Source: Williamsia limnetica
GTDB taxonomy: Bacteria > Actinomycetota > Actinomycetes > Mycobacteriales > Mycobacteriaceae
NCBI RefSeq assembly: GCF_003217475.1
Contig: NZ_QJSP01000009.1
Coordinates: 1 to 64,000 of the forward strand
Length of the DNA stretch: 64,000 bases
Direction of reading: 5' to 3'
Shown here: piece after piece, positions 21,153 to 24,355 of the stretch
Layout: every line of letters begins with the position of its first letter
How positions within the stretch are numbered: the stretch's first letter is position 1
Notes under the pieces: model-generated
Databases searched by the model: none
The model's input: the letters and a program-made list of their open reading frames with translations, nothing else
What the model was told of the DNA's origin: nothing
Program-made: the position numbers and the translations under genes

Positions 21153-22766
21153 GTGGAAATGTCTGCTCCCGAGAACTCGGTGCTGCGCCCAGCAGTGGTG
21201 ACACCGACCCAAATCGCGGTGCTGTCGGCGGCCAGTGGTGCGCGGATCGATCTGGTCGGCGCGGTCACCGAGAAGACCGAGGTCACCGGCGTCACCCTGC
21301 GCGCGCAGCACGTACGTCCTGGCGATCTCTTCGCCGCTCTGCCCGGTAGTCAGGTGCACGGCGCCCAGTTCGCCGCCGATGCGCTGGCCGCCGGGGCCGT
21401 CGCCGTACTCACCGACCGCGCGGGCCGTGACATCGTCGAGGCGATCGAGAGCCCCGTCGATTGCGCAGTGCTGGTACATCCCCGGCCACGGCAGGTGCTG
21501 GGGGAGCTGAGTTCGCGGATCTACGGTCAACCCTCGCGTCGGATGACGCTCGTAGGCATCACCGGTACGTCGGGCAAGACCACCACCAGCTACCTGACCG
21601 AGGCGGCCCTGATGGCCGACGGTCATTCGGTGGGGCTGATCGGCACGGTCGAGACCCGCATCGCGGGAATCCGGCAGCCGAGCGCACTGACCACGCCGGA
21701 GGCCCCGGAATTGCAGGGTCTCCTCGCCGCGATGCTCGAGCAGGGCGTGGATGCGGTCGTGATGGAGGTGTCGAGCCACGCCCTCGAGCTCGGGCGCGTG
21801 GACGGCAGTGTCTTCGGGATCGGGGCGTTCACCAATCTCTCGCAGGACCACCTCGACTTCCATCCCACAATGCGCGATTACTTCAATGCCAAAGCTCTAC
21901 TGTTTCAGCCGGATTCGTCGGTGCATGCGCTGCGAACCGTCATCTGTGTCGATGATGCCTGGGGCCGGGAGATGGCCCGGATCGCCGGGGCGAACGCGAT
22001 CACCCTGTCGACCGGTGACACTGCGGCGCACTGGCACGCCGGCCCGTCGGACGTCGCGGTCGACGGTAGTCAGACCGTGACGCTGACCGATCCCACCGGC
22101 GACACCTTCACGATGACCGTCCCCATGCCCGGGCGATTCAATGTCGCCAACGCGCTGACCGCTGTGGTGATCGCCTCGGTGGCGGGCGTGGCCACCACCG
22201 TCGCCATCGATTCGATCAGCGATGTGGCAGTGCCGGGCCGAGTCGAACGGGTGAGCAGAGGGCAAGACTTCTTGGCAGTGGTCGATTACGCGCACAAGCC
22301 CGCCGCCCTCGAGGCCGTGATCGAGACGCTGCGAGGCCAGGTGAGTGGCCGGATCGCGGTGGTGGTGGGAGCAGGTGGCAACAGGGACACGGGCAAACGT
22401 CCGCTCATGGGCGAGGCTGCGGCACAAGGAGCGGAGCTGGTGGTGATCACCGATGACAACCCTCGGACCGAGGTGCCCGCCGAGATCCGAGCGCAGGTAC
22501 TGGCCGGCGCGCACGCCGTACCGGCCTCCGCGCGGCCGCGGGGCGCCGAACCGGTGCGCGAGATCGGCGACCGAGCCGAGGCGATTCGGTCCGCAGTGGC
22601 GTGGGCACAGTCCGGCGATGTGGTTCTCGTCGCAGGCAAGGGTCACGAGGCAGGCCAGGAGATCCACGGCGTCAAGCACCGGTTCGATGATCGGGTGGTG
22701 CTTGCCGAGGCGATCGACGAACGTTTGACCGCGCGCACCGCTCCCGCAGGCGATGAGTCGGCGTGA
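21153..22766 (+). CDS. murE: UDP-MurNAc-tripeptide ligase MurE (meso-DAP adding)
   Basis: A full-length Mur ligase of 537 residues that adds the third stem-peptide residue in the cytoplasm. The ATP-binding loop GTSGKTTT is near 137-144, and the D435-N-P-R438 motif indicates meso-diaminopimelate, not lysine, as substrate, matching a mycolata wall. The start may be the GTG at 21153 or the ATG two codons later. The stop overlaps the next frame (murF remnant) by four bases, so the operon junction is intact. Confidence 0.95.
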   Translation: MEMSAPENSVLRPAVVTPTQIAVLSAASGARIDLVGAVTEKTEVTGVTLRAQHVRPGDLFAALPGSQVHGAQFAADALAAGAVAVLTDRAGRDIVEAIESPVDCAVLVHPRPRQVLGELSSRIYGQPSRRMTLVGITGTSGKTTTSYLTEAALMADGHSVGLIGTVETRIAGIRQPSALTTPEAPELQGLLAAMLEQGVDAVVMEVSSHALELGRVDGSVFGIGAFTNLSQDHLDFHPTMRDYFNAKALLFQPDSSVHALRTVICVDDAWGREMARIAGANAITLSTGDTAAHWHAGPSDVAVDGSQTVTLTDPTGDTFTMTVPMPGRFNVANALTAVVIASVAGVATTVAIDSISDVAVPGRVERVSRGQDFLAVVDYAHKPAALEAVIETLRGQVSGRIAVVVGAGGNRDTGKRPLMGEAAAQGAELVVITDDNPRTEVPAEIRAQVLAGAHAVPASARPRGAEPVREIGDRAEAIRSAVAWAQSGDVVLVAGKGHEAGQEIHGVKHRFDDRVVLAEAIDERLTARTAPAGDESA

Positions 22767-23266
22767 TCCCGGAAACACGTCTTACGTTGACGGACGGCCG
22801 CACGGCAGGTCATCTGCTGTCCCACCCGCCCGGACCGGTCGACCAGCGTTCCGTGCGGTCGGCGCTGCGTGAACTCGCCGAAGCGGTCCATGCGCAGCCT
22901 CAGCGACGCAGCTGGGCCATACTCGGTGAGCTCGATGCGCCTGACGATCTCGACACGGGCGACCCGCTCGCGATGACGCGATGGGTGATCTCACACGATG
23001 AACTCGGACGGCTCGCAGTGAGGCTCGACATCGGTCAGGTGATCTGTGTCGGGACCTCACGGGCAATGCACGGTCTGCACCAGGGGGCGGTCATGGAAGG
23101 GTCATGGGGTTCGGAGGCGGTGCTGGTGTCGAGCCCGAAGGAGGCGCTGGACATACTGGACGCGCAACTGGGCCACAGCGACGTGGTGCTGGTCATGGGT
23201 GGACGTGAGCTGGGACTGCCCGGATCATTCGGGGCCGGCGGGGTATCGAAAGGTGAGGACTTCTAG
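22763..23266 (+). CDS. murF: Truncated MurF: C-terminal domain only
   Basis: This frame occupies the murF position but has 167 residues instead of about 480-510. Residues about 33-158 resemble only the MurF C-terminal domain: RRSWAILGEL near 48-57, then ELGRLAVRLDIGQVICVGTSR and LHQGAVMEGSWGS (near 75-117), then SDVVLVMGGRELGL near 139-152. These segments align by eye with the remembered mycobacterial MurF. The N-terminal UDP-substrate domain and the central ATPase domain, including the GKT/S loop, are absent. The 500 bp between murE and mraY cannot hold them in any frame. The GTG start overlaps the murE stop (GTGA), and mraY starts at the next base, so translation coupling is kept. By itself it cannot ligate D-Ala-D-Ala; a complete MurF must be elsewhere, or the assembly or strain has an in-frame deletion. 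Confidence 0.85.
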   Translation: MIPETRLTLTDGRTAGHLLSHPPGPVDQRSVRSALRELAEAVHAQPQRRSWAILGELDAPDDLDTGDPLAMTRWVISHDELGRLAVRLDIGQVICVGTSRAMHGLHQGAVMEGSWGSEAVLVSSPKEALDILDAQLGHSDVVLVMGGRELGLPGSFGAGGVSKGEDF

Positions 23267-24355
23267 GTGAGACAGATCCTGATAGCGGGGGTGATCTCGC
23301 TGGCTGTCGCGATCCTGCTGACCCCGGTGCTGATCAAGGTCTTTTCACGGCAGGGCTTCGGCCAAGAGATCCGGGTCGAAGGACCCAAGAGCCATCAGAC
23401 CAAACGTGGTACGCCTTCGATGGGTGGCGTCGCCATCGTCGCGGCTCTGTGGGCCGGATACTGGGGTGCGCATCTGGTCGGACTGGCAACCGACGGAGAA
23501 GGTCCGACCGCGTCGGGCATCTTGGTGCTCTCGCTGGCGACGACGCTGGCGGTGGTCGGGTTCCTCGACGACTTCATCAAGATTCGCAAACAGCGCAACC
23601 TCGGGCTGAACAAGACCGCGAAATCCGTCGGGCAGCTGATCGCGGCCGTGTTGTTCGGTGTACTGGCCCTGCAATTCCGGAACGAGGCGGGGTACGCGCC
23701 TGCCAGCAAGCAGCTGTCGTACGTCCGCGACATCGACGCCATCACCATGGGATCGGTCGCCTTCGTCGTATTCGTGTGGCTGGTGGTCTCGGCCTGGTCC
23801 AACGCCGTCAACTTCACCGACGGACTCGATGGTCTCGCCGCCGGCTCGATGGCGATGGTGCTGGGCTCATACGTCCTGATCACGTTCTGGCAGTACCGGA
23901 ACGCCTGCGTCGGTGGTCCGAAGACCGCCGAACCGGGTTGCTACACCGTGCGCGATCCACTCGACCTCGCGCTCATCGCGGTCGCGGGTGGCGGTGCGTG
24001 CCTGGGATTCCTGTGGTGGAACGCCGCGCCTGCCAAGATCTTCATGGGCGACACCGGGTCGCTCGCACTCGGCGGCATGCTGGCCGGTCTGTCCATCACG
24101 ACCAGCACCGAACTGCTGATGGTGGTCGTGGGGGCACTGTTCGTCGCGGAGATCATCTCGGTGGTCATCCAGATCGCGGTGTTCCGCACCACCGGCCGAA
24201 GAGTCTTCCGGATGGCACCCTTCCATCACCACTTCGAACTGTCCGGGTGGGCAGAGACCACGGTGATCATCAGGTTCTGGTTACTCACGGCCATCGCCTG
24301 CGCGCTGGGACTGTCGCTGTTCTACAGCGAGTTCCTCACCGCCAGCGGGGGATAG
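23267..24355 (+). CDS. mraY: Phospho-MurNAc-pentapeptide translocase MraY
   Basis: A polytopic enzyme of 362 residues with about ten helices that transfers phospho-MurNAc-pentapeptide to undecaprenyl phosphate, making lipid I. Active-site signatures are present: [14 protein letters not shown] near 104-117, [15 protein letters not shown] near 180-194, [10 protein letters not shown] near 260-269 and the [11 protein letters not shown] loop near 319-329. Its GTG start immediately follows the stop of the truncated murF. It needs UDP-MurNAc-pentapeptide, the MurF product, so a functional MurF must exist in the cell. Confidence 0.95.

Follow-up and report, generated by a model that had tools for sequence, protein, structure and literature searches.

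An orphan MurF C-terminal domain between murE and mraY in Williamsia, Gordonia and related genera, with the complete MurF encoded elsewhere

We have analyzed a window of 64,000 nucleotides from Williamsia limnetica (positions 1 to 64,000 of contig NZ_QJSP01000009.1, assembly GCF_003217475.1), which includes murE and mraY of the division and cell wall (dcw) cluster. Between these two genes, where murF would lie, there is a single stop-free frame of 167 codons (22763-23266, + strand), here called the orphan. A reading of the sequence alone had taken it for the C-terminal domain of MurF only, overlapping murE by GTGA, directly abutting mraY and free of stop codons, and our profile searches and reading of the locus bear out all of this. 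The orphan scores 28.7 bits against the MurF profile TIGR01143, not reaching the curated cut-off of 288.6, and covers only positions 313-411 of the 418 in the model, corresponding to the C-terminal end of MurF. PF02875 (Mur_ligase_C) gives 25.5 bits (E 2.6e-5), just under its gathering score of 28.4. The orphan differs from MurF in lacking the N-terminal and ATPase domains and in starting from its own start codon; with 500 bases available at the locus, it is not a three-domain MurF with a P-loop ATPase domain. Its predicted structure has the fold of a Mur ligase C-terminal domain, although the underlying alignment (51 orphans and 17 native MurF ends) includes native sequences and the model may therefore be drawn toward the MurF fold. 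A search of solved structures with the sequence profile of the orphan gave no match at E 0.01, and within limited literature searches we found no published description of an orphan MurF C-terminal domain.

What the orphan has lost and what it has kept is seen in an alignment of 79 orphans with 20 native dcw MurF ends and six ends of relocated MurFs (described below). The NDxYNANP motif is lost, as are M, E and L in MAELG and, in VKAS, both the lysine and the serine. Neither YNANP nor the late lysine is retained in any of the 79, and none has the combination of NDxYNANP with VKGS or VKAS. The orphan is thus predicted to be catalytically dead. The retained stretch reads HD..GR.AVRL..VG..R...HQGAVMEGSWGxE and is mostly present in native MurF, with EGSWG in all 79 orphans. 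Residues conserved at 0.85-1.00 in both orphans and natives include R49, W51, H78, D79, G82, R83, V86, R87, L88, V96, G97, R100, H106, G108, A109, V110, E112, G113, S114, W115, G116 and E118; M111 stands at 0.80 in natives, and Q107 is found in all orphans and 0.75 of natives. Most orphans have also become conserved at V76, A89, D91, V102, L105 and A119, of which the W. limnetica copy has only L105 and A119. The DNA pattern of the motif has a single occurrence in the source genome, within the orphan.

Table 1. Features of the murE-mraY interval, in positions of the window
Feature	Position	Strand	Remark
Orphan MurF C-terminal domain, 167 aa, without N-terminal or ATPase domain	22763..23266	+	
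GTGA, 4 bases shared by murE stop and orphan start	22763..22766	+	same overlap type in 58/61 unfused copies
murE, complete, 537 aa	21153..22766	+	
mraY, first base directly after orphan	23267..24355	+	
Codons 21-28, at the place of native NDxYNANP in the alignment; motif lost	22823..22846	+	alignment columns 62-79
Codons 77-98, HD..GR.AVRL...VG, retained from native MurF, dN/dS 0.11	22991..23056	+	
Codons 99-120, R...LHQGAVMEGSWGSEA, strongest constraint, dN/dS 0.04	23057..23122	+	DNA pattern unique in genome
Codons 144-147, VMGG, aligned to VKAS of native MurF; lysine lost	23192..23203	+	alignment columns 260-263

The orphan is present in 79 of 79 dcw loci read, comprising nine from Williamsia, 59 from Gordonia and 11 from four further genus-level groups (eight in g18 and a single genome in each of g7, g12 and g16). 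The assignment to Gordonia draws on sequence matches: in two members the second contig is, over its first 6,000 bases, 100% identical to plasmids of G. bronchialis DSM 43247 and G. hongkongensis, and a third member searched in this way gave no match. The frame is open in every one. In 61 it is a separate gene of 148-215 codons, and 58 of these have a four-base type of overlap with murE. In a tree of MraY and MurE, made by a quick method with midpoint rooting from 25 of the 79 orphan genomes and 27 native genomes, one change suffices to explain the distribution (Shimodaira-Hasegawa-like approximate likelihood ratio test, SH-aLRT, 99). The carriers, that is Gordonia, Williamsia and the four further groups, form one clade. 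The sequence-only reading had left room for a recent in-frame deletion or an assembly error in the source genome. That explanation is refuted, because the 79 loci from six genus-level groups, including separately named assemblies, all show the same state and those in the tree form one clade. Nor is there a near relative with a full murF at this place beside a decayed frame in W. limnetica; no full murF lies there in any of the 79. In a wider search of 401 genomes of the family, with 342 matches, those listed from other genera were mostly frames of at least 500 codons, as in full MurF, and a few were shorter than 500 codons. One genome (G021), 66% complete and without either a MurF or an orphan match, was left out.

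Three sequences met along the way deserve separate mention. The dcw locus on NZ_JNYV01000005.1, a record labeled Kitasatospora arboriphila NRRL B-24581, is that of a Williamsia and has a 78% identical orphan; the record is probably mislabeled. In CAJCHX010000862.1, from an Acidobacteriaceae metagenome bin, a MurF end is 47% identical to the orphan, the level of mycobacterial MurFs; the contig is perhaps misbinned. In G014 the orphan, at 215 aa, is longer than any other unfused copy and ends in a repetitive low-complexity tail; like two further unfused copies, it does not have the four-base overlap.

We have estimated selection on the orphan as the ratio of nonsynonymous to synonymous change (dN/dS), using counting estimates on few, related genomes that saturate at larger distances. 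For 12 pairs of Williamsia genomes the orphan gives 0.04-0.28, compared with 0.06-0.16 for murE; for two between-genera pairs the values are 0.24 and 0.62, with 0.23 and 0.29 for murE. Along the frame (six Williamsia genomes and G019, 21 pairs) the ratio is 0.73 in the N-terminal tail, 0.34 in codons 26-47, 0.18 in 48-60, 0.54 in 61-76, 0.11 in 77-98, 0.038 in 99-120, 0.63 in 121-137, 0.18 in 138-152 and 0.75 in the C-terminal tail. In codons 99-120, synonymous change is no lower than in other parts of the frame (proportion of synonymous differences, pS, 0.57). The low ratio at the motif with free synonymous change indicates a constraint on the protein that is uneven and sharpest on one stretch. 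The same variation leaves an RNA or DNA element beneath the motif unsupported. The orphan protein is probably made. As a separate observation, pS is low in codons 121-137 (23123-23173; 0.28, against about 0.5 elsewhere) while dN/dS there is 0.63. A promoter of mraY or some other nucleotide element may lie here, or the value may be low by chance in a stretch of only 17 codons.

These data bear on whether the frame might be a passive relic, serving as a spacer or coupling the translation of murE to that of mraY. The prevalence of the four-base overlap among unfused copies and the direct abutment of mraY in the source genome are what such a role would give, and constraint over the whole frame is weaker than that of murE. 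Against this, selection acts at the level of residues within the domain. Moreover, 55 of the 79 orphans end more than 50 bases before mraY, which makes coupling to mraY a weak reason for retention, and in other lineages little or nothing separates murE from mraY. We regard a passive relic as very improbable.

The reading from sequence had proposed that a complete MurF is encoded elsewhere, and this is what the genome search found. The W. limnetica genome (6.35 Mb, 100% complete) has one MurF above the cut-off, a protein of 441 aa on contig 23 scoring 393.7 bits, with DAYNANP and LVKGSR intact and all the motifs of a complete MurF. Its gene lies head to head with the only match to a D-Ala-D-Ala ligase (Ddl) at E 1e-30. 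The same head-to-head arrangement of murF and ddl occurs in all 14 orphan genomes checked (G000-G008, G014, G016, G019, G023 and G025, where G000 is the source genome). In Gordonia, all 59 genomes searched have an orphan-profile match and, at a separate locus, a full MurF.

In 10 of the 14 genomes the ddl paired with murF is the only ddl match; Williamsia G005-G008 have a second, weaker one elsewhere (E ~1e-80 to 1e-82), ~130-146 kb from the pair, which was not found in G000-G004. G008 groups with G005-G007 in the MurE tree. A published study (PMC8698665) reports vanHAXRS in W. marianensis and describes actinobacterial murF-like genes beside vanHAX-like genes, which resemble the present arrangement in placing murF outside dcw near a D-Ala ligase gene. 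The pair described here differs from those in holding the complete MurF of the genome. Another genome of the order, G045, has a divergent second MurF (176.8 bits) and a divergent Ddl-like gene (163.5 bits) within ~5 kb (C45:12001-22000) in addition to another complete MurF; this pair possibly belongs to a secondary-metabolite or resistance set.

The relocated MurF is of a foreign type, that of another class of Actinomycetota. Among 396 genomes of the phylum, its best matches outside the clade come from another class, with 67% identity for G800 and 49-60% for 15 others. MurFs of its own family that pass E 1e-70 score more weakly, with a best identity of ~50%; two from family f3 of the same order, outside the 396-genome draw, reach 66 and 68%. 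Since identity alone is not decisive, the grouping rests on trees. In the MurF tree, 17 of the 43 relocated MurFs, 16 from the other class and the two from f3 lie on one side of a branch with SH-aLRT 99, and 44 other MurFs, 37 of them from the same order, lie on the opposite side. The Ddl tree, with nine relocated Ddls, has the same split with support 100. In the other class ddl is head to head with murF in 14 of 16 loci; of the remaining two, one contig ends at murF and the other has no ddl in the available stretch. Thus the relocated MurF and Ddl group with the ddl-paired MurF and Ddl of another class, and a foreign pair has taken over. Both trees rule out that the complete copy arose by duplication of the native murF. 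Support for the relocated MurFs as a single group is 49, and the relocated Ddls are intermixed with those of f3 and G800, so that neither tree shows a single entry of the foreign pair. We can only infer the donor, the direction of transfer and the number of transfers. The other class may be Acidimicrobiia.

The sequence of the foreign enzyme sets the orphan in relief. A regular expression for the conserved motif matches 24 of the 37 native dcw MurFs from the order and none of the 42 readable relocated MurFs (43 less G371). Both the foreign, ddl-paired nature of the complete MurF and the retention at dcw of a motif that it lacks go beyond what had been read from the sequence. In 16 of 16 genomes having the same MurF type (14 of the other class, one of them that without an observed ddl, and two of f3) the gap from murE to mraY is -13 to 88 bases, and a search for the orphan domain in these 16 gave no match at E 1. 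Thus that MurF type does not need the domain, and complete loss of the old gene is possible. In f3 and the other class murF is gone from dcw without trace, and in the orphan clade the tail stayed. One could suppose that the domain binds the relocated MurF and provides the surface absent from it. The lack of the motif from every readable foreign MurF and the presence of both genes in all the Gordonia genomes searched are in keeping with this. Yet the same type of MurF manages without the domain in f3 and the other class, and all 18 fusions of the orphan that we observe are with MurE and not with MurF, which is encoded elsewhere. We consider a partnership with the relocated MurF distinctly unlikely.

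These fusions are found in 18 of the 59 Gordonia loci, and in that genus only. MurE and the orphan are joined in frame with no intervening stop, giving proteins of ~630-700 aa in the stretch read that consist of MurE plus the C-terminal domain. None is a bifunctional MurE-MurF fusion with a complete MurF. On a quick MurE tree of all 79 genomes the fused state requires five changes, and well-supported branches make at least four of these necessary, although gain and loss of fusion are indistinguishable and two of the long branches flagged belong to fused proteins. The sequence-only reading had suggested that the domain was kept, perhaps as a binding or regulatory partner of the Mur ligases. Purifying selection agrees with its retention, and fusion to MurE in some relatives is what a partner role predicts.

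Our preferred reading, to which we give an even chance, is that the orphan is a domain of MurE without catalytic activity that serves in docking or regulation. What suggests this is the retention at the murE stop codon, through two genera and more, of a stretch with neither the ATP- nor the UDP-sugar-binding domain and without the ligation motifs, the constraint on a motif absent from the new MurF, and the several fusions to MurE. A broader proposal, to which we give somewhat less than an even chance, is that the C-terminal domain of MurF in Mycobacteriales has a second, non-catalytic function in docking or controlling MurE and the Mur assembly through the HQGAVMEGSWGxE face, and that Gordonia and Williamsia have split it, with catalysis passing to the foreign MurF and the old domain becoming a free or MurE-fused control subunit. 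On the preferred reading, the motif in native MurF of the order would be a contact surface separate from ligation, holding MurF to MurE or to a membrane-side Mur assembly. At dcw the native murF has been stripped of its N-terminal and ATPase domains and no longer has the catalytic motifs, and its C-terminal domain has remained in position and in frame. As the incoming MurF is without the motif, the old domain would have been retained to supply the contact surface, either by translation starting at the murE stop or as part of a MurE fusion, and may help to position MurE or to hand on UDP-MurNAc-tripeptide.

Several observations weigh against a MurE domain. The whole-frame dN/dS of the orphan exceeds that of murE in 11 of the 12 pairs within Williamsia, and reaches 0.62 in one between-genera pair. 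Fusion of adjoining, overlapping genes can occur without a functional link, and a structure model of the fused protein (predicted template modeling score, pTM, 0.71) gave nothing usable on docking. With a MurF-Ddl pair of the same type, two f3 and 13 other-class genomes do without the domain. Finally, the motif is possibly close to the substrate side of the fold and could serve as a site for a ligand instead of for docking. The domain could then be a sensor that binds D-Ala-D-Ala, UDP-MurNAc-peptide or nucleotide through the GxxR...HQGAVMEGSWG loop and tunes MurE allosterically. In the predicted structure of the orphan the motif residues come after strand 92-96 and occupy helix 100-111 with the loop that follows it, a region that faces the active site in Mur ligases, and the retained residues are also among the most conserved in native MurF. 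The loss of the catalytic motifs NDxYNANP and VKAS stands against a sensor, and we think it unlikely.

Known systems offer partial likenesses to a MurE domain of this kind. According to PMC6420597, MurE and MurF of Bordetella pertussis are fused as one bifunctional protein that binds MurG, the fusion is taken to favor a Mur complex in which MurG is the scaffold, and whether the cytoplasmic Mur enzymes act as a working complex is an open question. The likeness lies in a MurF part covalently joined to MurE; in the 18 Gordonia fusions only the dead C-terminal domain is so joined. By analogy this makes a role of the orphan in a Mur complex plausible, and it shows nothing for the orphan itself. MurT of the MurT/GatD amidotransferase is likewise a relative of the Mur ligases with another role beside a partner protein.

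In this clade, then, an essential enzyme has been cut by evolution, with the presumably non-catalyzing part retained at the murE stop codon and bearing a selected motif that is absent from the replacement. A non-catalytic role of MurF becomes testable, with the residues named. The 68 Gordonia and Williamsia genomes searched make their peptidoglycan precursors with a MurF of another class's type, and the same holds for Ddl in those where it was looked at. Work in the order on MurF as a target may therefore not transfer to these genera.
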